Below are positions 2,998-62,200 of a DNA stretch of 64,000 nucleotides, piece by piece. Source of the DNA: Punctularia strigosozonata HHB-11173 SS5 (lineage: Eukaryota; Basidiomycota; Agaricomycetes; Corticiales; Punctulariaceae); the NCBI RefSeq assembly GCF_000264995.1, contig NW_006767433.1, positions 2,648,046-2,712,045 on the forward strand, in the 5' to 3' direction. Both the position numbers and the translations under genes were made by a program. The notes below the pieces were generated by a model. That model saw only the letters and a program-made list of their open reading frames with translations. It made no database searches and had not been told where the DNA came from. Numbering within the stretch: the stretch's first letter is position 1; each line of letters opens with the position of its first letter.

Positions 2998-5900
2998 TCA
3001 GTTCCACATCCTGCCCTTGCAGTTCCTTGACCCGCATCGGCAGCGGATATAGATGCCATCGGTAGGCTGCTCTTTAACCTCCTCCTCTTCCTGTTTCCGG
3101 AGTTTGATTAGCGTTGGGCTACAATCGATGTCAACGCAATGATCTCACGTCGTCGTCTCCCGGTACACCGGTATACGAGAAACAGATTTCCTCGTGAGGT
3201 TTGATGTTCTTCAGCGCGAAAAAGGTCAAGAGCGGCTTGTCGATATTGGCCTCGTTGATGTAGCACGGGACAATCACCACGTTCGGGTCGCACGAGTGGT
3301 TCTGAAAGGCTGGCGTGAGCATGAACAACGAAGAGGTCATGCACGGAGCGTACTATGAACCGAGTAAACTAAGTATATCGTAGAGTGAGTCGATCTCGGC
3401 TGGCAAGAAAGCGGACCATGCACGCACGTTGCCTGCGTGGAAGGCGTCATAGACATATATGGACTCCCACGTCAGCGGGTCCGGACCTTTGAGATACCAA
3501 AAGTCGATATCGAACAGGTACGTCCGGCCAAACTTGTTATAGAGCCTCGAAGGGATGGCAGGGTCGGTCTAGCGTGAGGCGGGGGACGAAGGAGCAAGCT
3601 CACCGGCCTCGCTCCTCGCCCTCTTCGTTGGTGAGCAGTTCGCCGGCGTACGTCCCGATGTACGTCCCGGCGGGGATAGCCTTGGAATCCGCGAAAACGC
3701 CCCATCCTTTCCTAGGCGTCTGTCGAACAACGAGTCAGCGAAGGCCCGCAACATCCAACAAGGTCGAGCCACCCGCCTTCATGATATTCAGGGCAACCTT
3801 TCTGCCATGCTGGACCACCTGAACCAAAGGATGAGAGGCGGAGCTTACGATGTGTCCCTACGCGTACCCGATTTTTGCACTCGTCGTAGCAGGCGCACCG
3901 ATAGTTGCACTCGAATATAGGGTACTCGTGCATGTCCTGCGCATATTGAGCAGAGGTACTTCATGTGTGCGCAGTAAAACTCGCCTTCTTGAGCCTGCCG
4001 TTATCCTGATACATGAAGCCCTTGAGCCCCGAATTCTTCGTCATCTCGTGCTGCCGCTTGAGGCACGAGCATGTTATGGAATTTGGGTCACAGTATGGCT
4101 CACAGCTGCACCCCACCAGGCTGTCCGTGTCAAGAGGCGGAACATCCTTCCCATGCCAGATCCTGTTCGAATAATGGAATTCCGCTCGTGGCACCGGTTG
4201 GTTGTCGACGTTGTTCACGACCTGGATGACCGGTGCTCTTGGCTCGTCTGTCGTCCCCGTGAGAATGTTTGTAGTGAAAATCGAGCGCAGCACAGACGGT
4301 ATGCGCATGTATTTGGGCATCTGAGTCATATACTTTTCGACTTCCCATTTCAGCTCGTGCGCAAAGTAAGTCTTGGGCCTCAACAGCTCCCTGGCCGCCT
4401 TTGAATCGATGACGGCAACAATGTGTGAAGGCAGCTTTCGACCCTCCCAAAAATCTTTAACCTCGGCGGATTTGACAACAGCAATTTGCGGACGAGAGGG
4501 CACACGCTTCGCAGCCCGTTCGTTTGATTTTGGCCGAAAGGACTCCGACGAGCGTGCAATCAACTTCTGGGCGTTTCTCTTGGAACGCCTCGGTGGCAAG
4601 GGAGCTTCAGAAGGCAAGGAGCGTGACGAGGTCTCCGAAGTATTCTACACGCGGTTAGACTCCTATCATCCCTAAGATAAAAGAATCTTGCCTCAGGCAT
4701 GTCTTGCAGTGAGACAGGCTCCGAATCGACATCAAGCAGCGAGGTTTCCGTGGAGACCTATACGAGGTCAGACTCTCGGCATGACGCGCAATGGAAATTT
4801 GGGGCTCGCCTGAGGTCTGTCTGGCAATGAGACAGAGTCCCGATCAATGTCACGCGGGGAGGCTTCCGTAGAGACCTACGCGGGTTGAGATGCAAGCACC
4901 GGATAGCGAATTTAAGCTTGCCTGAGGCTCATCCGGCAACGGAACAAATTGCAGGGGGTGGATGCCTTGTGAAGGCACGTTCGAAGACACCTGTGGGAGG
5001 TGATTGATACCTTCAGCAGCTAAAGCAAAGAATCATAGCTCACGTCAGGCATGTCTGGCAATGGAACGATATCCTCATGAGCGTCATGCAAGTTTTCGAG
5101 CGGGTCCTGTAGAATGTGAGTTTCTCTAGAGACAGCAGAAAATCTGGACTTGCGTCAGGCGTGTCGGGCAAAGGAAGAAATTCCAGATCACCGTCATACA
5201 AGATTTTGTCGGACGAGCCCTAGTCGAGATAAATATGTCAATAACAGATCGGAGTGAAAACTCACCTTGGGTATATCTGGTGACAGAAACGTTCCCTGTG
5301 GCACATCAAAGGAGGCATCCGAGGCGTCTTGCCCCGCATCTTTCTCGTCCTCAGTCGGCGGATAGTGCAAGATCGCATCTTCTCCTTCCGATGCGGAGGC
5401 GACAGGCTCCGACGGGACGGGGAGCATCCCTCTTCCCTCCGAGGTTGTCAGTGATGAGCCCTCTTGCGCAGAATTGGCAGCGACATCAGTTAGAACGCTG
5501 GGCTCCTCAAGAGGACGAGATTCTTGCTGAATATCACCGCCGCGAACCGGGCTTCGTTCCGTATCGACACGCTCCGAAGTCAACGCCCGATGCACTGCCA
5601 AGCTGGACGGAACCTGCGGGGTTTGAATCCGCGCACGCGGTGCGCCATCCCTGTCAAACCTCCGGTGACTACTCATGGTCGACAGCATGCTACACAAAGA
5701 GCTGAAGATATCATGATCAAATGACAAGATCCAGGAACGACGTACCCTTGCAATGCATGCGTACTTTTCCAGGCATCCGTTCCCGGTATGTCTGACAACG
5801 AAGACTTCGATTCAGACGATCCGGAATCCGAATCCGAATCCAAAGTGAGGTCAATCACAAATCCTGGTCTCGCCCCCAGCAACGTGTGCGGGTCTTGCGC

Positions 5901-7995
5901 AGGAGGTGCAGGGGTAGCGCCAGTTGTGGGCAACAGATCTCGTTCGCCGATGGGTAGCACATCTCCCCGTTCAGCCTTCACTTGAATTTGTTCAGCTGTA
6001 TCAATTGACGATAGAGCATCGGTGTTCTCTTGCAGGGCGGGACCAGTAGTCGGTTGATGGGTTGTCGGTATATGAATTGGGGCTGGCAGAACATCCTCCT
6101 CGTTCTGCTGCGCAAGGTGGAGTGTACCTAAGGGTTCTGTCGCAGCTGCTAACAAAGGTTGTTTGTTGAGAATATGGTTGAATGGCGAGACATCGGGTTT
6201 CCATTCCACTTCACGACGGCGGCGGGAGGGAATAGCGCTGATGGACCCTTCGGCACGTTTGTCCCTGAAGGGACCCTCTTTGGTATGCAGCCACGTAGAC
6301 GTCTGGGTGAGAGTGCGCGACGGATTCTGGGTGGATGCAGGCGCAGGAGGGATGGCAGCATACGAGGGAGCAGCATTGACGGGTCCAATATGCAGTTTGT
6401 ACAAGTCCTCCGTGGCTTCGGTAAGAGGGAGCGGATCCGTCGAAACGAATGAAGGATCCACATTCTCTTCGGCATCCGCAGACAAGGCCGGTTCGGGTGA
6501 CGAGGAAACCCGCCGTGATGAAGGTAACGGGAGCTGGCTCTTGATGACTGCAGCATTCTCACTTACTTGAGACGTCAACAGCAATAAAATCCCTTACCTG
6601 GGTCCTTATCACGATGAATCATGGTGACCTCCGGGGCAGATGCAGGAGGTTCATCATCTGAGTCCGAGATTACGATGACGTCGTCTTTCGAAGAATGAGG
6701 AAGCATGCTCTTTTTTACAGGAGTTATCTCCTCGTCAGAGGATGCCAGGTTGATCATCTCGTGCTTCGTCCAGTCAGACTTGCGGGGCCAACGACCTGTA
6801 TGATGCTTCACCGACGTTTTCCTACGGCGTTGTGCATCCAAGTCAGACGCAGAAACCCGACCAGGAGAAGTTGTCGAAGATATCCCTCCTGTGACCACGC
6901 GAGATGCGGAAGTCGATCCGTGCAGACGTTGCTGCTGTGTGCTGTTGGCCGTTGGGAGCGGACGCGTGGATACTTGATCAAAAGAGATGTAATTTTCAGG
7001 TTTGACAACTGTCCAGGATATCCACGATGAATGATAAATGGTAAACCGAGAAAGCGAAGTTGAGCAATGGAAAATAGAATACCTTTGGACGACGGGCTGC
7101 GCATGAACTCATCGAAGTTTCGAACACCAGGTGACGAGCTGCCTTGCGTCGAAGCGGCGTGCCGACGTGAAGCTTCCCGACAATCAACGCGATGTTTAAT
7201 ACGGGCACCCAAACTGAGCTTACGGGTAATTGGCATGCGATGAGTTACTGAGGTCTGGGACATCCTCGAAGGCGAGTGACTAAAGGTGTGTTTAGCTCCG
7301 TGCGTGATAACCGGGGATGGTTGGGATATTGTAGGTAACGGTTTCGGCCTCTTCGAAGGTCGATCCTTGTCAGGCGATTCGTTTGCAGTCCGTTTCGGTT
7401 TCCAGGACCGCATGCTGGCACTCAAAGTTAACTGCGTGCCCCGTGTGTTTTGGTGGATGGCCAGTTGAGATACCGGTGGTTTGGCACTCCGGGGGACTTG
7501 AGCATCTGGCAGAACAATCTCTATCTCTTCAGCCTCGCTTTCATGCTCATCTTCCGACGTCCCTTTGTCTTTGATACGAGTTGCAAAACAGGGGTTAGAA
7601 TGAGTTGCACTGAACGGAAAACCTTCGGCGCATTCATTGATGACTACTCTGCAATGAATACGCCGAACGTATAATCTCCGTTACATACCATGAATTGACG
7701 ACCGGGTAGGTACCGACGGAGACGTCATGTGTAGCGGGTAACGTCGAGAGCCTATGCCCTGGCTGAAATCGACCCTCAATGGTTGGCGAGCGCCTTTACG
7801 ATGAAGACCTTGGGGTTTCGGCTTCTTCAAGTCCAAGTGCAACACTGGAGCCGAGGACTCGCACCGTAAGCTTTTGGTGTAAGGTGCACGTTGTACTGGA
7901 AGAGATGAAAATGCCGGAACCGTGGCTGATATATGCTCAGCCACACCCGCCCGCTGCTTGTCCTCCGAACCATCTTCATGACGGCAAAGACCCAT
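2998..7995 (-). CDS. CLR4: SUV39/Clr4-type histone H3K9 methyltransferase
   Basis: It methylates H3 lysine 9 in nuclear heterochromatin. Exons (minus): 7995..7689, about 7568..7083, 7008..6598, 6547..5746, 5689..5266, 5219..5154, 5106..5044, 4990..4922, 4875..4810, 4757..4692, 4644..3985, 3936..3868, 3818..3777, 3719..3604, 3545..3428, 3368..3354, 3301..3149, 3090..2998, about 1341 residues. Residues 1-920 look disordered, with SUMO-interaction-like cores (VIVISDSDDE, VIDLTLDSDSD, IEIVLPD). A cysteine-rich pre-SET follows (VGCSCEPYC), then SET with KGWGVFA, GNFTRFINHSCDPN (about 1253-1266) and CFSYTG (Tyr about 1303), and a post-SET CxCx4C end. I see no chromodomain. It is much longer than Clr4 (490 aa). 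Six introns use GC donors, and one exon is 15 nt. The acceptor before 7568 and the start codon are uncertain; the ATG at 7995 overlaps the divergent neighbour. Confidence 0.9.
4645..5265 (-). repeat. Tandem mini-exon/intron cassettes in the H3K9 methyltransferase gene
   Basis: Five consecutive exons of 66, 63, 69, 66 and 66 nt (5219..5154, 5106..5044, 4990..4922, 4875..4810, 4757..4692) are separated by introns of 46-53 nt. Every exon begins and ends in phase 0 and encodes a 21-23-residue unit ending in a variant of LPD-x-P followed by D, Q or E (LPDTPD, LPDMPD, LPDEPQ, LPDRPQ, LQDMPE). Flanking exons begin or end with related residues (LSPDIPK upstream, TSETSSRSLPSEAP downstream). The donors after units 1, 3, 4 and 5 read GCAAGT, GCAAGC, GCGAGC and GCAAGA; the others are GTGAGT and GTGAGC. 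The pattern implies duplication of an exon together with its intron. Confidence 0.8.
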
Positions 7996-10900
7996 CAACC
8001 ATCGTCTAAGGTATACTCACGAGCGCTGCCATTGGTATCGCAAACTGAATTGTTCCCCAGTTTTACGTGGAAGATGTCGTCCATCGTAATGGAGCACCGC
8101 AGGACTACGGTATAATAACCGTGAGTATCCATCCATCGCACGCGAACTCAGCTTTACTCTTTCCGTTATTCACAGAGGTCCTGGAGTAATGAAGAAGAAC
8201 TCCCTTTGGAGGGAGAGGACTCCGATGATCCCTTCCTGCGCCCGCTTCAAAATGGTGAAGTCGGCGTAACGTGGGCGCATCCGTCTGGACGCGACATTGT
8301 TCACGAATCGGAACTCGTTCTTGTGGATCGAGCTTTCGGACCCGGAGATCTGTGCAAACGCAATATAGACGACATACCCTCAGGGATAATCACGAACGTG
8401 GACTGCAGAGTCCTGCTTTGTCACGCCGTTGATGAGACGCCAATAGAAGGCTGGAAAACTATGGAAGAGCTTGAGGATCCGCAGGATGTTGAACTTGGCG
8501 ATTTCGTGGTGCATGCCGATTGGATAGGACAGGTAAGCCACGAACAACAGCCAACCCCGATGTACCCAATCTGAAGATATTTGCCAATCAGATCGTCGAG
8601 GTATGTATCACTAGCACTTCCACGCGTTCGACTCCTCACCCTCGTTAAAGATGTTCGATGAAGCTATTGTTCAAGTCGAAGGAAGCCGCCGCCTTGTGCG
8701 CGTCCCCGAACTCAGTGCACATCTCATGGTTGGCGACAAGGGAAAGGTGCGTGCGTGGATATTGCTAACGTGGCTCAAGCTGACGTTACATTCATAGGAT
8801 ATTTTGCCGGAGCCCGCGTTCATGTTACCTATGTTCGGTCTTCATACACCAATGCCCAGACCGGCAGAAACAGATACAGTTCTGGACGTCAAGCATACTG
8901 TCCTAGCAGTCTCGTGGCTTGCTATCAATCAATCGGTCCGTTGTCTCTGGTTTCTTCAAAGATTAAGTCCGACGCAGTTTGCAAAAAGTTAGATCCACTC
9001 CATGCAGCTCAAAAGCCACGCCCACCTCGGTTCTGGTACGGGAACACATTGTCGCAGTTGACGTTGGTACGGTTGCGGTCAGATTGCACGCCGAGGCGTG
9101 GTGATAGAGTTCATCTGAAAGACAGCTCCCTCGTCCCTATCACCAAGCACGGAGAAGGAGATCCCAACGGTCCTATTGAGGTCAATACCTTGATGGTGCA
9201 AGACATCAGGACAAATGTTGACGTGCTGTGGCAAGACGGGTCCAGTCAACGAAATGTCCCGTCGACTTCATTGGTGCCATACCTGAACCCAAGCGATACC
9301 GACGCGTGGTGAGTGCTGAAAGGATTGTCCTGTTTCAGATTGCCGATGCTGTTGATGTCAGGCCTGGAGATTACGTCCTATGGAAATGCGAAGGTCACAG
9401 TCGACCGGCGGTTGTTCAATCCGTCAATGCCGTGGACCGGACTTGCATCGTGCGCTATATGGACGATCATACCCAAGACTTGGCATCGTTGCTTGAGTTA
9501 GATGCATACGGCATTGACGACCCTTCTGGTCCCATGTCTTCCTCGCATGAAGGACTTGGTTTGAGCCGCGGCGATCTTGTCCTCATTCATCGGGAAGGGA
9601 CGACCAATGGAGCAGGGAGCTTCAGAGTGCCGAAGATTGGCGAAGTTGAAGATTGGGCTAGGGAGCCTCCGGAACTGGATGAGGACGGACAGCTGGTCGG
9701 GTGGCGAGCAGAGATGTATGGCATTGGCGTCAGCCTCGCGAAGCAAGGCGGAGCGGCAGTTCATCGTGATGGTCAAGTAACATCGAGTAAATGCTACGAT
9801 GGATCACTCAATTGGCTTGGTGAAGTGATGGATGTTCGTGCATAAACACCTGCGTCATAAGCCCTCCCGCTCATGATCTGCCTCGTTTTACAGCTGCGTC
9901 TGGATGGTAGCGTTGAAGTTGGATTGCCTGATCGTACGGCCGCGGTGTTTCCCTTGGAACGTCTTACAAAGCTCTACGACGGCATGGATCAACTGGACGA
10001 CATGTTCGATGACGGCCTTTCCATCCATTCCTCCGAAGACGACGGCAACGACATCCAAGTGATGGATTCCAACGGACAGTGGGCGGACGTGAACGAGGAC
10101 GAGGACGGCTGGGAGGATGAAATGGACGTTGACTCCATAGAGGACAAAGAGACGTCCTCGATACCTGAACCTGCTGCGGCACCCACATTTTCAAAGAGGG
10201 ACAGCGAGCAGGAGCCAATAGAAACGCCTTCCGACAAGACACGATCAGAGCAGTCTCAACTGACCACACCTGACGATGATATAACCAACTGGACCCGTTT
10301 CGCGCTTCTTCCGTCTGCCCCAGCTGATCACGCTTTCTATACGACTACTCCGGGACAACCATCTAGGCACTTTCTCTCGAGGCTTGCAAAAGAATATAGA
10401 GTGTTATCCAGCAGTTTACCAGGTGCGCGCGAATTGCCAGTGGCAAGATGTTAGCCTGATCAGATTTTAGACACTATACTCGTCCGAGCGTATGAAGACC
10501 GTACTGATCTTCTGCGGACGTTGATCATTGGTCCTGAGAATACACCATACGAAGATGCCCCCTTTGTGATCGACTGGATGTTGGAATCAGATTTTCCTCA
10601 ATCACCGCCGAAAGCGCATTTTCTGAGCTGGACCCATGGGAACGGAAGAGGTGCGCGCGAACTGGTTTTTCTTGGCTGTGTTACTCTATGTTGATATTTT
10701 CTCCCCAGTAAATCCGTGAGTGTCGCCACTTCTTTCGTCGATCGTCGTTTCTCATCATGCACCGTCAGCAATCTCTACGAGGAGGGGAAAGTTTGCTTGA
10801 GCATCCTTGGGACGTGGTCGGGAGACAAGACCGAGACCTGGAGCCCCGCCAGGTCATCTTTGCTTCAAGCCCTGGTTTCAATACAGGGCTTAGTGCTGGT

Positions 10901-31374: not shown

Positions 31375-32859
31375 TTACTCATCTACATTCAAACGACGGC
31401 GTGTCTCAACGCCCAAGTCCTTCGGGATGCCGCGGGACACCCGAAATTCGTCGACCTTTTTCCCCAGGCGCGCAGCGTCGGATTTCGACATAGCATCCAC
31501 CAGGCCCGCCGCGATGATGTCCTCCACCTTGCGCCAGTACAAAAGGAATGCGAGGGAAGTCCAACCCCCGATCGCGGCAACGATCTCCGTCGGCGCGCCT
31601 TGAAGCAGCCAATGGGTGGTTCCGCCGATGCGGAAACAGTGCCCGGAAAGCGTGCGTAACCTGGCTTTCGACCAGATTTCGTTGCATCTAGTCAACAGGC
31701 GAGTTTTTGTCAAGGGTAGGAAAGTGCCGTCCGGTGATTTGTATGCGAAGAGGTGCTCGTTGGGGGCGGCCCCGACGTTGACCATCATGTGGGTGCACAT
31801 CGCTTTGATTGCGCAGAGTTCACTGTCTTGAGCAACGAGGATGACCGATGCACCTTCCTCCCGGGTCGTTTTCGTCCATGGTACCCTGTAAAACATCGCC
31901 TTGTATCCGTCGCCGAGATTTTTCATGTCCTGCAAAAGTGTGGTGCACATGGGATGGTACATGGGGTCGAGCTCTGGCTGCGAGGTTGGCAAGAGCTCGC
32001 CGAGTCTGCGGCAACCCCAAAAAGCGCTCGTCACCGCTGCCCAGATGGCCGCGTCCAGAGGGTCCGAGAGAGTCAGTGCGGCGTAGAGACATGACAGGTG
32101 CGCCAAGGTTGCCGGGGGACGCGGTTGCCGAGTGTGTATCCGGCCTTCCTTCTTGGCCGCCGTTCGTGACATCCCCACCAGCATGTCGTCGCCGCACCAT
32201 GGCGCGCCCATGATGCCGTGCCAGGCTCTAAGTCCCGCCAACCAACCCCTGACGCAGCTACCAGAGACGAGGCCCAGAGAGTGAGAGACGAAGGCTGTGA
32301 TCAAGATGGGAGGTGCTGGGATGCGAAGGGCCTCGGAAACCCCACGGGCGTCGCAAAACTGGGCGTAGCGCAGCAGACCGGCTGCATAAGATTCGCGGGT
32401 GTCCTTGTCGAGTGCTGCTGTGGCAATGCGGAACGGGGATTGCGCAACGTCAATCCCAAAGTCCTTCGCCGCCTCCGTCTGGCGCTCTACAGACCATTGC
32501 GAAGTCCACGAGGTGAGGCGCTCTGCTGCTGGGACATGCGGGCGAAATGGGCTGGGTGCGAGGTTGCATCCGGCCTTGGACTTACGAGCAAGCGGTGTTA
32601 CCGAGGATGAGCCGTCTGCTTGCCGTCCGAGTTGGGCTGGTGCATGTGCATGCCGGGCCTGAGAGCCTATCTCAACGATGGCTGGGAGCGCCTGTTGGGT
32701 CGCAGGTAGTGCCAGTGTCGGTTCGGGAATGCGTGCAAAGCTAGGTGCGGTCGATGGTTGCGTTGGCTGGTGTGTGCTGGGAGGGGGACTGGGCATTTTG
32801 TTGGTCTGAGCGGCTCCCGCCGTTGGCGTGAATGGCGGCGGAATGCGGAAGAACGACAT
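31375..32859 (-). CDS. Tyrosine recombinase of the Ngaro-type element
   Basis: Single ORF of 494 residues from ATG 32859. After a Pro/Ala-rich N-terminus, a core-binding region (about 110-250) precedes the catalytic domain. Catalytic residues are visible in order: Arg in WGCRRLGELLP, the His-x-x-Arg pair in SGHCFRIGG, Trp in IGGW, and the nucleophile candidate Tyr in LLYWR. It would cut and rejoin the circular cDNA intermediate into the genome. It starts 29 bp after the RT ORF stop, so the two are probably expressed from one transcript. No stop or frameshift is seen. Confidence 0.9.
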   Translation of the reverse strand: MSFFRIPPPFTPTAGAAQTNKMPSPPPSTHQPTQPSTAPSFARIPEPTLALPATQQALPAIVEIGSQARHAHAPAQLGRQADGSSSVTPLARKSKAGCNLAPSPFRPHVPAAERLTSWTSQWSVERQTEAAKDFGIDVAQSPFRIATAALDKDTRESYAAGLLRYAQFCDARGVSEALRIPAPPILITAFVSHSLGLVSGSCVRGWLAGLRAWHGIMGAPWCGDDMLVGMSRTAAKKEGRIHTRQPRPPATLAHLSCLYAALTLSDPLDAAIWAAVTSAFWGCRRLGELLPTSQPELDPMYHPMCTTLLQDMKNLGDGYKAMFYRVPWTKTTREEGASVILVAQDSELCAIKAMCTHMMVNVGAAPNEHLFAYKSPDGTFLPLTKTRLLTRCNEIWSKARLRTLSGHCFRIGGTTHWLLQGAPTEIVAAIGGWTSLAFLLYWRKVEDIIAAGLVDAMSKSDAARLGKKVDEFRVSRGIPKDLGVETRRRLNVDE

Positions 32860-32887
32860 TCGTGTACAACAGTATAGAGGTGAACAA

Positions 32888-35298
32888 TTAAGCTCGTACG
32901 ATGTATGGTTTCAGTTCGGCAGGAAAGGACATGGGCGGGAGACGAAGAGCTGCTGGCGGCAACATGCCGCGCGATACTGCGTCTGCTGGGTTCGCCTCCG
33001 ACGCGATGTACTCTAGGTCTAGCGTAACGTTCGTGCTGTCCAAAACTACGCCTGCCCTCCGAATCGCTAGGTTCATCTCGGGATTCGGGGAGCGTCCCTT
33101 CTCGAACGCACCAATTGCGGCCTGGCTGTCGGACCAGAGCCGCATCCAGCAGTCCGTCAAGCCTCCCTCCTCCAACGCGTACACGGCGAGTTCGATGGCC
33201 AAGCATTCCAGCCAGGTGTTGTGTCTGATACGATCTGGGCTCCAGGAATCTGTGAGTCGCCACGCATCCCATTTGTCGCCCAATACTATCCCTATCCCCC
33301 AATCCGTTGAGGCATCTACGTAGAGACCGACCTCTTGGAGGTCGCGCCGTTGCACCAACGGGCGCGACACGTTCGGCTTCGCAAGCTCGAGGTCCCACCA
33401 ATGTAGCGCATTCTTGATAGCCCCGGGAAGCCGGAGCTTGCGCCATTTGTTGTTCTTGAAGAGGGACGAAAAGTTCGAGAGGGCCGGTAGGCGCGTGCGC
33501 CCTGCTGGGTAGACGAAAGTGATGTGACATAGGGATCCGTGGATAGCTTGAATGTCATGCAGAGTACAGCCGGCGTTGTCGAAAGATGCGAGGAAGACGC
33601 GGACCCTCGAGCGGAATTTCTTGCGTTTCGTGTCCGTGAGTGATACAGTGCGGTTGGTGTAGTCCCACCAGAAACCTATGTGCTCGAACTCGGAGGCGAA
33701 CTTCGTGAGTTTGGCCATCTTCCATGGGATCTTCAGTGGCGCGACACTGCGGGAGACCGTATCTTCGTCGTAGTAGTAGCTGTGAGTGTCGATGCGAGCT
33801 AGGTTGGAAACTATGGGGGACCGGCTGACGGAAAAGTCGTCCTCGTACTTGGACACTGGCCCGATGTCGAGTGCTTCCCAGATGTCGGCGATTGCATTTG
33901 CGATCATGCCCGCGTTGCTGCTGGAGGCTGCGCATCCGAATGGGCATGCATGGTCGATGAAAAAGGTGTTGTCTGGTCCTCGGACCACGAACCACGGTTT
34001 GTGCGCAGGTGCAATTGGACAGGTGCGGTGAAAGGCCTCGATGTCTAAAGTCATCGATTGTGACCCAGCTGGCGCCCTCGCAATCTACCATTGCTGCGTC
34101 AGCCGTCGCCTATCATCTCACAACTCGTCTGTGCCCAATCGTCTCGAGTCGACACGTCCAACTGGCGGCCAAACACGGTGCATGCTCCTATGGCAGCGAC
34201 GGGCATGCTCCTATGGCAGCGACGGGCATGCTCCTATGGCAGCGACGGGCATGCTCCTATGGCAGCGACGGGCAGGCTCCTATGGCCGCAACACGATGCG
34301 GGCTCCTATGGCCACGACATGCGGTGTGAAAGCCTGGCGACTGGCTCCTATGGCGCAGTGCCCCTCGCACCCAATATGGGCCGGAACGCGACGTATGTCG
34401 CAACAAAATGTGCATGACTTACAATGTCTGCGAGGTCTCGAGCGGTGCTGAAGTGTGTCGGGAAATCTTCTTTACTGATGTGGTCGTTGACGGACGGGAT
34501 GCCAAGGTTTGCGTCGCCTTTTGAGAGATGGCGACAGACTCGATACTTGATCTTGTCGTCGCTGGTGTAGGATGTTGCAATGAGTAGAGGTGAGGACATG
34601 AATGGTCCGCGCAGGATGCGCTCGCAGTCTACTTGTGTGAATGGTCCTGAGAAACGGCCAGCGGCGCATTCTTCGTGTATGTAGTGCCGGATAACGTCGG
34701 GATGGTCATCGCAAGATCTGTGATTGTTGAGAATCACTGTCGAGGTCAGCAGAGGGAAGTCTCCCATCGGGAAACCCTGCTTCAAGAAACGGATCAAGTA
34801 CGGATAAGCCTCTGCCAACCGATGGTTGGCCAGGAAGGAGTCGAAAGCATCAGAGTCGTAGGGTGTGACAATCTTCTCGAAGATAGCGTCGTCAAGAGGG
34901 TGGGAGCTCTGCAGGCGTGAGCGGGGTATCATCTTCGAGGACAAATCTGGCTGCGGCTTAGCGCGAAGTCCCCGCCTTATCAGGGGGAGCTTGGCAATCA
35001 AAGGAGAGCGCGTGGTGGGCGGGAGATCCGCAGAATGAGCAGACGTGCTTCCAACTCTTGGGGTGAGTGCATGGGCGGGTGGCGGCACCACGGAGGTTCC
35101 AGACGCGGCAGACAGATTCACCGTCTTTGGTGCGGGAAGACTTGTCGATAAAGCATGCGCGGCCGTTGGGAAGTGTTGCTGCGGTGCAGCTCGCGCCGTT
35201 GTGACCAAGGGCCCCGCATCTGACGCATATATTGTCGGAGCTGGCCCGGTGCGCCTTCCGCGATGTCGGGAATCCTTCTTTGGGCCGAAACGAACCAT
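32888..35298 (-). CDS. Reverse transcriptase-RNase H of the Ngaro-type element
   Basis: Two exons, 35298..34423 and 34084..32888, joined in phase 0 across a 338-nt intron (GTAAGT...GGTAG), give about 690 residues. The join reads through the RT fingers/palm (FMSSPLLIATS, YRVCRHLSKG, then APAGSQSMTLDIEAFHRT), which argues that the gap is a real intron. The RT active site is YEDD in VSKYEDDFSV. RNase H follows with GLYVDAST, an acidic Glu in WLECLAIELAVYAL and LWSDSQAAIGAF. The 5' part overlaps gag by 341 nt in another frame. The intron holds a minisatellite. Confidence 0.85.
34181..34345. repeat. Minisatellite inside the RT intron
   Basis: A 23-bp unit (core GCTCCTATGGCAGCGACGGG) is repeated four times without visible change from 34181 to 34272, then followed by diverged copies sharing GCTCCTATGG to about 34357. 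It lies wholly inside the intron of the RT ORF. Confidence 0.85.
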
Positions 35299-36271
35299 GG
35301 CCTGCCTGGTTACCTGAAATGGGACGGAGGAGACGCGCCTCCAACTGCGCTATTTCCCTGCTCCTCTCGGCTTTAGCCTCCCGCTCGCGAGCCTCTTCCC
35401 GTGCCTGACGCTCCTCCTCCCAGATGTCGTTTTTGATACGCGATATCATTGCACTCAGGCCGACTGGGTCATGGCCGATCCGGGTGGAACCGTAAGCCCG
35501 GCGGGTCTCCTTATCCGTTCGGAGGATGGCTTTGAAGCATGTCTCGGTTTCGGGCTGGCGGCTGAGGTAGAAAAAATGCTTGTTCCAGCGATCGAAAAGG
35601 CGGTTGTTGCCTGGTGCGAATGTCTTGAATGAGCGGAGGAGGTTCCCTGCCGCTTGCTCCCAGGACCGTACATCGAGGTCATCCTCCTGGCCTATGACTG
35701 CTCTGACCTCTGCATGGTCAAAGTCCAGAACACGCATGGATCTGTCCGAAGGATTTTCGGGGTTGGTCTTCCTCATGGGTAGGTCGGAGCCTCGATCCAG
35801 GAAGTATTGCAAAGCTTTGTTGGTCCATAAGTGTATAGGGATGTACATACTATAGCCCAAGAGTTCGAGCACCGACGGATGGAAGTCTATTTCGACCGGG
35901 AGCCTGGCGGCCGGGTCGATCTCGCCGCCCGTGGGGTCCAATGCACATCTCTTCTTCGCCCGCCGGGCGTCGTCTTCGGCCTTCCTCTTGCGTGTCTCCT
36001 CGTCTATCTTAGCTGCAACATCCCGCTCCTGCTTGGCCACGATCTCGGCCTGTTCTGCGATTAACTCGGCCGGCGTGATCTCGATCTCGGTCTCATCGCC
36101 GGAGGCATCTGCCGCCCCTGGTTGGCCATGTGCGAAGGCAACACGGCGTTCCGCTCTCTCCCTGTTACTCTTCCGGATCCTCGCATTGCGAGTCCGTTTT
36201 TCGTCCAAAGGGAGTGCATTGAGTATCGGCCGGATGGCGTCGCAGAAGTAGGTCCGGTGGTTGTGGACCAT
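34958..36271 (-). CDS. Gag-like protein of the Ngaro-type element
   Basis: ORF of 437 residues from ATG 36271 (MVHNHRTYFCD). It is highly charged, with a Glu/Lys/Arg-rich helical region (about 40-120 and again about 280-330), and near the C-terminus a CCHC zinc knuckle (CVRCGALGHNGASC) followed by a second Cys/His cluster (CSFCGSPAHH). It would bind RNA and form the particle. The ATG is chosen because the longer frame upstream has no ATG. Confidence 0.85.
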   Translation of the reverse strand: MVHNHRTYFCDAIRPILNALPLDEKRTRNARIRKSNRERAERRVAFAHGQPGAADASGDETEIEITPAELIAEQAEIVAKQERDVAAKIDEETRKRKAEDDARRAKKRCALDPTGGEIDPAARLPVEIDFHPSVLELLGYSMYIPIHLWTNKALQYFLDRGSDLPMRKTNPENPSDRSMRVLDFDHAEVRAVIGQEDDLDVRSWEQAAGNLLRSFKTFAPGNNRLFDRWNKHFFYLSRQPETETCFKAILRTDKETRRAYGSTRIGHDPVGLSAMISRIKNDIWEEERQAREEAREREAKAERSREIAQLEARLLRPISGNQAGHGSFRPKEGFPTSRKAHRASSDNICVRCGALGHNGASCTAATLPNGRACFIDKSSRTKDGESVCRVWNLRGAATRPCTHPKSWKHVCSFCGSPAHHALSFDCQAPPDKAGTSR

Positions 36272-36351
36272 GATTATTCGCGGAGAAGACGGTAGATTAC
36301 TGAAGTTCGGCGAGTATATGCACAAATAAAATGATTATACGAGCCCTTTTT

Positions 36352-59200: not shown

Positions 59201-62200
59201 CACTCTTCACTGTGATTCAATCTTGAGTGCCGCGTCCGAGTTATGGTCTTCGAACACAGGCTTACATCTTTGCCCCTCGTCAACGACGAGCACTTCCCAT
59301 CTTCCTGCTCCCTTGAAGACGGAGCTAAAATCCTTCGGGTTATTGAGAGTCTCGTAAGTGGTCACAAGGACGTGATAGTTCCGAGAATCTCGCAGCTCGA
59401 ACTCTCGGATGACAGCGCGGGCCTTGGCCTGTATGGATGGCATGATGAATTGTACACTTCACCTCACGAATGGGCCTACCTCTCCATAGAACGGTACCAC
59501 CCGAAGCTTCGGTGCCCAGCGTTCGAACTCCCGCATCCAGTTGGTGAGCGTCGAATTCGGAACGACAACCAGAGCAGGGAAGACTTTCCACCTTTCGACC
59601 AAGGTGCCGAGAAAAGTGGCGATCTGTACGGTTTTTCCCTAAACACTAACGGTCAGGATGGTTCTATCAAGAAATTCTACGGCTTACCAGACCCATCTCA
59701 TCCGCAAGTATGCAGTGCTGAAGGTTCCACCAATTGTTACACAACCAGTTGAGCCCATCCAGCTATTTTAGGTGGCCTCATCAACCGCTGGACGAAGCCA
59801 TTACCGAGTAATAAGTCCGTACCTGAAAAGGCATCAACTTCAAAGTATCGTCTTGGCCCAAATCGGGCTGCTGTCCTTCCACAAGGGCGTATTTCTTCTT
59901 GTACTCATTTTTGGTACGGTTATCCGGAAGATCTCGCTTCTTCACAACTTTGATTTCGCGAGCACTTACAAACCTTCGGAACGCGACCTCGAAGGCGGGA
60001 TAGTCGGCATCGTTTGGACACGGTGGGGAGTCCCATGTCGCTACGGAAGGCGTCAGCCGGAGAAGACACCGTAACGGCCGCACGACGCACACTCTTCATA
60101 CCCCAGATCGCCCCACTTGATGAACGCCCAGATGACCAGATGAGCGTCATCGTCTCTAAGTTCTCTCTTATTGCGTTTCTCCCATTCCTCCACGGTCTCT
60201 GCGAGATCATCATCAGGCTGCTCGCCTTGATTATACGCAGCAAATCGTTGCTGCTCAAGCTCTGACGACAGTTCAGCGACGTAATCGTTGCTGACGCTGG
60301 CCGACGCCGTTGAGCCCTTCCCTCTAGGTGCTTTTGCTTTCTGGAGTCTCTTCTCCGGCGCCCAGAGCAGTACTTCGAGTACGCGATCCACTGTTTTCCA
60401 TGAAGGAGGAATCCTCCTTTCAGCATCTATCAAAGCGGTAGTTGCAGTGTTCAGCGAAGAGTCCTCGGGTACACCCGGCACGGACGAGTCTCGGGAAATA
60501 CTCTCAACGGTAGCGAGATTATCATCCGGAGGAACATTGCTTGGTTGCATAGCATTCTCGGGCACGGGTTCATCGAGCAGCTTGACCTTAGTGCCTCCGG
60601 CGAGGAAGTTTTTCAGCTTCGCGGGACTTGTAGAGAGAAGCCACATATGAGGAACCCAGGATGTCCTCCGGTAGCTTCGGTCGACCCATTTGACAAGGTA
60701 CTCCCGCGGTAACTGGGACTTGTAATTGGAGGAGTCAGCAGGTGGCTGCAGCGCGTTCACTGGATATGGCCTCCAAGCCAAAATCTTGTCGAGGGCGAAC
60801 GTGAACGAAGAGCAATCGTGACATAGCCACTTGGTCTCGCGTTGGTAGTAGAGGGCATAGGACACGGGATCGTCATGTGCGCCTTCCGGTGGTGCTGGTA
60901 GATGAATATAATGAGCAGGACGCTTGCAAGTCAGGCACCTGAAAAGCAGCTCTTTTTGGTGCAAGTCATCCTGCTTCGCATCGTTGGCCATCTTGACATC
61001 ACCGTCGGGGCCCCCTCCGACGGATGCCTTGGAACCCGGGGAGTGCTCCTGTTGGGAAACACACGGACTATCCACTCTCTCTAGGCAGCCAATACAAAAG
61101 CCACCCCGGGTACAGGCACCGCAGACAAATTCAGTGGTTTCCAGAACATCAAGATCGTTTCGCCGCGTCATGTCGCCTCGGCTTCCGAGAGGTAGAGCCT
61201 GGTCGCGCTCGCGCGCAGCCTTGAGAATATCGCTGCGTTGAGTAGACGCTAAGCAATTCCAATGAGCTGCTACCGGACACCTCAAGCTATGAAAGGGCGG
61301 AGAAAAGTGCATAAGCTGTACATTAGCATTGATAGTTCAGATGCTCACCATCGAACCCAACCGCCAAGAGAGTTGATATGCTCTTCTTCGTCTTCCTCGA
61401 ACTCGTCTTGCCTCGCCCTTTTACCCCTTTTCTTGCGCAACAACTGGACATGGGCTGGACGCTCCCGGCATTTCTCACAGGTGTCGCGATGGGCTCTCAG
61501 ACGGGCCGTGTCTTCATCGGAATCATAATCAAGCGCCTCAACGGGACGCACGCAGCCGTACGCAGGCCGAGCCGGCTTCGGAATTTGTTTCCTCAGATGC
61601 AAACGGGGTTCCTGGTAGGCCGAATTGAGTTCCTCTTCATCTGTGCCATCTTCCGTCCTGGAAGACCTCTTGGAAGAAGCGGAAGTTCGTAATGTAACTT
61701 GATACCGCGGGGCGGTAGCATCGGAATCGTCATCGAAGTCGGAGTCAGGAACGGCATAGACTCTAGTTGCACGAGTCTTCTTAGGACTGAAAGGCAGAGT
61801 CTTTTTGTTGGATGCATTGCGTGTGTTCCTGCGGCTGGGGAGATCACCATGAAAGTCCAGGAAGTTATCGCCGCTGTCGATCTCGGACTCCGACAAAGAC
61901 TGTCCCTCGCTTGATGACTGACTAAGAGACCATCGACCGTTGGATTGCCTCTGCGAAGTCGGATTCCTTCGTTTTGCACGTGTGCCGCGAGATGAAGTAT
62001 CGGAGTATGCATTGAAGCGTGTAAGCGACCCTGAAGCTTTCTTCGCCACTGAAAGATATATGCTCAGCTTAACATCTCAACATAGAAAAGAGGATAGAAC
62101 ATTACATACAATACTCATTCACAAGCTTGGGGTATAGAAGAGTCATCTTCTTTGCAGGATACTGTGTGGCATGTCGATTGTTGGTAAGCATCGCACCCCG

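Follow-up and report, generated by a model that had tools for sequence, protein, structure and literature searches.

A gene on contig NW_006767433.1 of Punctularia strigosozonata HHB-11173 SS5 raises a question of both origin and use: how did five very small, frame-symmetrical exons accumulate in the N-terminal part of a histone methyltransferase, and does splicing vary the number of peptide repeats that they encode? The locus lies in a 64,000 nt stretch of DNA (contig positions 2,648,046–2,712,045; hereafter, the window), the numbering of which is used throughout. In our view, the array is probably a linker repeat that is specific to its lineage and constitutively included in the protein.

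The gene encodes a predicted SUV39/Clr4-type H3K9 methyltransferase

The gene occupies positions 2998–7728 on the minus strand. Its final predicted model has 18 exons and encodes 1278 amino acids (the start codon is uncertain). By its domains and structure matches, the predicted protein is a SUV39/Clr4-type H3K9 methyltransferase, the identity that it had been given in the original prediction: Pfam searches return Pre-SET (6.9e-16) and SET (4.6e-18) domains, and the closest solved structures are H3K9-specific enzymes, including Schizosaccharomyces pombe Clr4 (best match 5.3e-45; 1mvh, 4.5e-44). These searches, and those for homologues, used a first gene model in which a 15 nt micro-exon was absent and the 17 residues before NHSCDPN were wrong. 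In the final model, the micro-exon is exon 16 (3354–3368, minus strand). It was placed on the basis of the sequence together with the GNFTR[YF]LNHSCDPN motif of homologues, and encodes the FTRFI of catalytic motif FTRFINHSCDPN. Once the micro-exon is included the catalytic motif is complete and, read by eye, fits the pattern R[FY]xNHSCDPN. Post-SET cysteines are also present at the C-terminal end (CRCGSRNC, by eye). The micro-exon is easy to overlook, and the enzyme seems broken when it is omitted.

No chromodomain was found in the predicted protein (Pfam at E 1e-3, first gene model) or in the precomputed domain annotation for 69 homologues. Since DIM-5 and the Cryptococcus homologue are also described as having no chromodomain (PMC10135481), we do not treat this domain as defining for the enzyme type here. 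When a Taiwanofungus homologue was compared with the genome (33.6 Mb, 32 contigs), it matched this locus only, apart from a weak SET match on contig 12, and hence the locus probably holds the genome's single clear SUV39/Clr4-type enzyme. In the homologue search, which was restricted to proteins of ~710–2260 residues, the best named relatives (which we take to be Agaricomycetes) show at most 53% identity. When a 369-residue piece served as the query, a single protein was returned: P0190 (231 aa), with 80% identity to the exon 11 reading frame. This one close relative spans exon 11 alone.

Several other features of the window were recorded. A plus-strand gene is predicted from position 7933, head-to-head with the methyltransferase gene and ~205 nt from its (uncertain) start at 7728; a promoter common to the two is possible. 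Within this neighbour, ORF 9222–9845 contains a UBE2O SH3-B match barely above cut-off. Further away, on the minus strand, lie three long adjoining ORFs (31375–36334) that by eye are retroelement-like, with a recombinase, and have no Pfam match, and an ORF (60053–61336) that weakly matches PHD-like and chromodomain models, in each case below the curated cut-off.

Layout of the mini-exon array

The array sits within the long N-terminal part of the methyltransferase, and consists of five minus-strand mini-exons that are all of phase 0-0: unit 1 (exon 6; 5154–5219; 66 nt; GSSDKILYDGDLEFLPLPDTPD), unit 2 (exon 7; 5044–5106; 63 nt; DPLENLHDAHEDIVPLPDMPD), unit 3 (exon 8; 4922–4990; 69 nt; VSSNVPSQGIHPLQFVPLPDEPQ), unit 4 (exon 9; 4810–4875; 66 nt; VSTEASPRDIDRDSVSLPDRPQ), and unit 5 (exon 10; 4692–4757; 66 nt; VSTETSLLDVDSEPVSLQDMPE). 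Each is followed by a short intron on the same strand: intron 6 (5107–5153; 47 nt; GC-AG), intron 7 (4991–5043; 53 nt; GT-AG), intron 8 (4876–4921; 46 nt; GC-AG), intron 9 (4758–4809; 52 nt; GC-AG), and intron 10 (4645–4691; 47 nt; GC-AG). Counting intron 5 (5220–5265; 46 nt; GT-AG), which lies ahead of unit 1, the set contains six introns. The exon and intron sizes, the phases, and the GC donors at four of the five units are thus as originally predicted. The prediction also held that all modules end in LPD-x-P. This is true of four units, in which LPDxP is followed by D or Q; the fifth ends in LQDMPE.

The two exons that flank the array carry partial copies of a unit. Upstream, exon 5 (5266–5689, minus strand; GT donor) ends in FLSPDIPK, a half-unit like the unit ends. 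Downstream, exon 11 (3985–4644, minus strand) starts with NTSETSS, a half-unit like the unit starts, and itself ends at a GC donor (AAG/gcgagt).

Units and introns are related beyond chance

The 621 nt array region, unsegmented, was aligned with itself. The maximum and mean scores were 77 and 69.2, compared with 23.4 (sd 2.9) and 21.4 (sd 2.2) in shuffled sequences (n=200). The excess similarity between units for which a self-comparison had been proposed is therefore present, and exceeds that of all 200 shuffles. Among 124 control stretches of 621 nt in the window, none reaches the mean score of the array and one reaches its maximum. Identity between pairs of unit exons is 51–74% (z 2.2 to 10.1), and each of the four neighbouring pairs beats all 45 background pairs, which consist of consecutive internal exons of 40–110 nt. 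The introns are also alike: the mean pair score of introns 6–10 is -4.80, while random length-matched sets of five genome introns average -11.99 (sd 1.53), and none of 5000 such sets scores as high. Taken singly, intron 5 shows a weak likeness to introns 6–10 that is not significant (13% of 252 background introns equal it). Tandem Repeats Finder did not detect the array, and a repeat search of the window returned, within it, only a 19 nt family at three places.

The array has the marks of duplication across a single intron

Two observations bear on how the array was built. Firstly, the likeness of the flanking exons to the units is rare in the background. The mean score of the exon 5 end against unit ends is equalled by none of 166 background phase-0 exon ends when 18 or 24 nt are compared, and by one when 27 nt are compared (best single score: 2, 2, and 3 of 166 for 18, 24, and 27 nt). 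The mean score of the exon 11 start against unit starts is equalled by one of 178 background starts over 18 and 24 nt, and by four over 33 nt. Both edge matches fade as the compared stretch lengthens. Half-units at both edges of the array point to duplication across one intron. Secondly, the array can be divided into two related blocks of three introns each: the block running from the end of exon 5 through I5-E6-I6-E7-I7 aligns with E8-I8-E9-I9-E10-I10 at z 11.3, with intron 5 as the counterpart of intron 8. This block relation, together with the relatedness of both unit exons and introns 6–10, bears out the earlier proposal that exon and intron were copied together.

We consider it likely that the array grew in two stages, first through tandem copying of a segment that spans one phase-0 intron and then through the duplication of three introns as a block, and that its units form a constitutively included linker. 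The steps that we infer are as follows. A tandem DNA duplication would have spanned one phase-0 intron in the long, presumably disordered, N-terminal region. Each such event would copy (i) the 3' end of the upstream exon, (ii) the intron, and (iii) the first (5') part of the downstream exon, and would so add one intron and one mini-exon, the latter being a 'downstream-exon start' fused to an 'upstream-exon end'. Later, a block of three introns (~344 nt) would have been duplicated whole, with exon 8 as the junction exon of the two blocks. GC donors would be passed along by the copying, and frame symmetry would be inherited from the single parental intron. The expected product is a repeated linker peptide of ~22 residues per unit, with all units spliced in constitutively and the LPDxP core looking most constrained.

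Further events have to be added to this scheme. Exon identity is highest between neighbours (70% for E6-E7; 74% for E9-E10, i.e., units 4 and 5), while intron identity is highest between block partners (60% for I6-I9). Since exons group by neighbours and introns by block partners, the scheme also needs gene conversion or later events. The duplications look old, given that the cores of introns 6–10 are just 42–60% identical.

Are all five mini-exons real?

The same similarities could belong to a decaying repeat, or to an alternative splicing path, in which case the five small exons would not all be real. Ab initio decoding with a home-made gene finder favours other boundaries and chose none of the five mini-exons. 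It also broke up exon 11, the reading frame of which is confirmed by the relative P0190, and so the decoder result deserves little weight. When the two blocks are aligned, conservation of the exons does not exceed that of the introns (59%, 96 of 163 aligned columns, versus 65%, 85 of 130), and the full units E6 and E9 show nearly equal dN and dS (0.62 and 0.64). Set against this, all units show splice signals at homologous positions, the frame is maintained in every one, and the in-frame coding score is positive for all five (8.4, 2.5, 3.2, 2.1, and 1.2 for units 1–5). The other two frames score below the in-frame one for every unit (for exon 7, one other frame reaches 0.8). Also, dN is lower than dS for E9-E10 (0.28 and 0.42) and E6-E10 (0.53 and 1.78), and the motif codons look constrained: pooled pN/pS is 0.42 for the eight codons at the unit end, where LPDxP lies, and 0.62 when the last twelve are taken. 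In the last eight codons, the differences by codon position are 0.30/0.16/0.42. We thus regard it as unlikely that some of the mini-exons are not real. Together, the dN/dS of full units and the pN/pS of the last codons suggest that the array is a linker under loose constraint that contains a short, constrained core.

GC donors appear to be ordinary and stable here

GC donors are found at six of the 17 introns of the gene. Four belong to the array; the other two lie between catalytic exons and follow exon 11 and exon 13 (3777–3818, minus strand; donor AAG/gcgggt). The join made at the exon 13 donor, NIMK/TPRKGWG, resembles NIQKTAKKGWG in homologue P0001. To put these numbers into context, 98.7% of fungal splice site pairs are given as GT-AG in one survey (PMC7072748). 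In our own background, a self-trained gene finder with a 1% prior predicted 12 GC donors among 551 introns in 264 kb, while the other 14 non-GT dinucleotides, which serve as a yardstick of false calls, average 3.8; the GC excess over the yardstick is ~1.7% of GT introns. With a stricter prior of 0.3%, there are five GC donors among 484 introns, and 18 donors in all with other non-GT dinucleotides. These background figures come from a weak gene finder, with 40,555 N bases in the 264 kb and the array of this gene absent from its calls. The four GC donors of the array are not independent of each other; finding two GC donors among the 11 introns outside the array has a chance of ~0.5–3%.

The donor of exon 11 allows a comparison with a relative. 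Where this gene has GRLKK/gcgagt, P0190 has GRLKKAS. The unlike tail of P0190 suggests that its frame continues into the intron; if it does, the alanine means GC, and the exon 11 GC donor is evidently kept in this relative. On the strength of this evident conservation, the gene's GC donors appear to be ordinary and stable.

Regulated skipping or constitutive inclusion?

The original prediction took the symmetry of the units and their GC donors, presumed weak, as a sign of a protein of adjustable length: GC-donor units would be skipped under regulation, giving an enzyme with 0–5 repeats before the catalytic domain. One premise is correct, in that removal of any single unit, or of all five, preserves the frame. 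Moreover, GC donors serve four of the five units, and this donor class has been linked to alternative splicing in other organisms. The conclusion drawn from these premises is not supported. On the proposed origin, the mini-exons would be fusions of two exon edges around a phase-0 intron, and their 0-0 symmetry, then an automatic by-product of duplication across that one intron, is no sign of skipping. Runs of such exons are not unique either: of 439 predicted internal exons, 76 have this phase, and the 70 background gene models likewise contain a run of five, the longest outside the array. In other respects the GC sites are median or better; scored without the +2 base, those of the array fall at the 83rd, 95th, 93rd, and 49th percentiles of 507 predicted introns. 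GC donors serve the catalytic exons too, where skipping should destroy the enzyme.

Fungal splicing in general points the same way. Averaged over 23 fungi, the reported share of alternative splicing events is 61% for intron retention and 3% for skipped exons, and intron definition has been proposed (PMC3925392); a weak donor here would thus tend to favour retention rather than a shorter protein. Retention of introns 5–11, one at a time, leads to an early stop in every case. RNA structure linking the units was also sought: folding of the array was no better than that of shuffled sequences (z -0.54, n=20). We consider regulated variation in repeat number improbable, and favour constitutive inclusion of all five units.

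The array is absent from homologues by motif count

No copies of the array were found elsewhere in the genome by DNA or protein search, with the best candidates scored. Of the 69 homologues, none contains more than two L[PQ][DE]xP motifs, whereas this protein contains five; by this motif count, the earlier statement that no such array is described for SUV39/Clr4 proteins holds. Likewise, among the matches listed in literature searches (on fungal exon duplication, GC-AG introns and intron gain, SUV39/Clr4 exon duplication, and Clr4 and SUMO), we found no report of a comparable array.

A possible source of the units within the family, a conserved acidic motif of homologues (e.g., EEREIVSLLDIPS in P0002), was considered and is regarded as unproven: the best match of the unit profile falls in the expected region in eight of 41 homologues, with 5.6 expected. 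Separately, motif discovery in the homologues returned a basic RRSxR block, which MAFFT pairs with PRRSKRN of this protein; the best match of the RRSxR profile in this protein lies elsewhere, near residue 346.

Do the repeats resemble SUMO-interaction motifs?

The N-termini of this enzyme family carry sites that resemble SUMO-interaction motifs (SIMs). With a pattern of our own design, picked after several such motifs had been noticed, SIM-like sites were found in the N-termini of 35 of 41 mostly Agaricomycete homologues (those of the first 57 proteins with the anchor pattern; 16 were without it): 65 sites, versus 7.3 (sd 2.7, maximum 16) in 200 shuffles. The repeats could then be weak SIM-like motifs (hydrophobic-hydrophobic-x-L-x-D), multiplied for stronger SUMO binding in a family already equipped with such sites at the N-terminus. 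In this protein the pattern matches at three places, residues 312, 569, and 842; the third match (LLDVDSEP) lies within unit 5. By a profile built from the 65 sites in the 41 homologues, the five units rank 11, 22, 23, 60, and 65 among 1267 positions in this protein. Their scores of 1.45 to -4.1 are far below those of the protein's clear SIMs (18.6 and 12.5), and the units are paralogous, so that they do not count as five independent matches; the pattern, moreover, was chosen post hoc. The units also carry a proline at a position where the SIM consensus disallows it. We judge a SUMO-binding role of the repeats to be quite unlikely. A scheme that combines it with splicing, in which skipping of the GC-donor mini-exons sets both the linker length and the number of SIM-like motifs, and so tunes the enzyme's hold at SUMO-rich silent chromatin, seems to us very unlikely indeed.

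Discussion

Intragenic tandem exon duplication is known from titin PEVK, collagen, and Dscam. The array described here is similar in that adjacent exon copies of equal phase were duplicated along with their introns. It differs in that the mini-exon seems to have been created by the duplication, through the fusion of two exon edges, rather than copied from an older, complete exon. The proposed route also resembles intron gain in potato, where a tandem duplication over an exon-intron boundary adds an intron with signals from the parent copy. In the potato case the donor comes from formerly exonic sequence, whereas here a whole parental intron, with both of its splice sites, was apparently copied.

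The position of the array can be compared with that of known regions in related enzymes. In S. pombe Clr4, autoinhibition and RNA binding are reported to map to a disordered region before the catalytic domain, in work concerned with basic residues (PMC12418378). The array occupies the same place, ahead of the catalytic domain, but it is acidic and proline-containing (by eye) and, by motif count, absent from the homologues found. The Cryptococcus neoformans Clr4 homologue is described as having the SET domain as its sole characteristic part and a very long disordered N-terminal side, much as here; that description (PMC10135481) makes no mention of a repeat array.

What the locus offers is threefold. 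Firstly, the half-units at the edges show a route from one intron to an array of frame-symmetrical mini-exons without selection for skipping, and carry a warning: exon symmetry should not be read as a signal of alternative splicing. Secondly, this is a case of one gene with several GC donors, one of which is evidently conserved in a relative. Finally, the SIM-like N-termini of mostly Agaricomycete Clr4-type enzymes provide a testable lead as to the placement of enzymes that lack a chromodomain.
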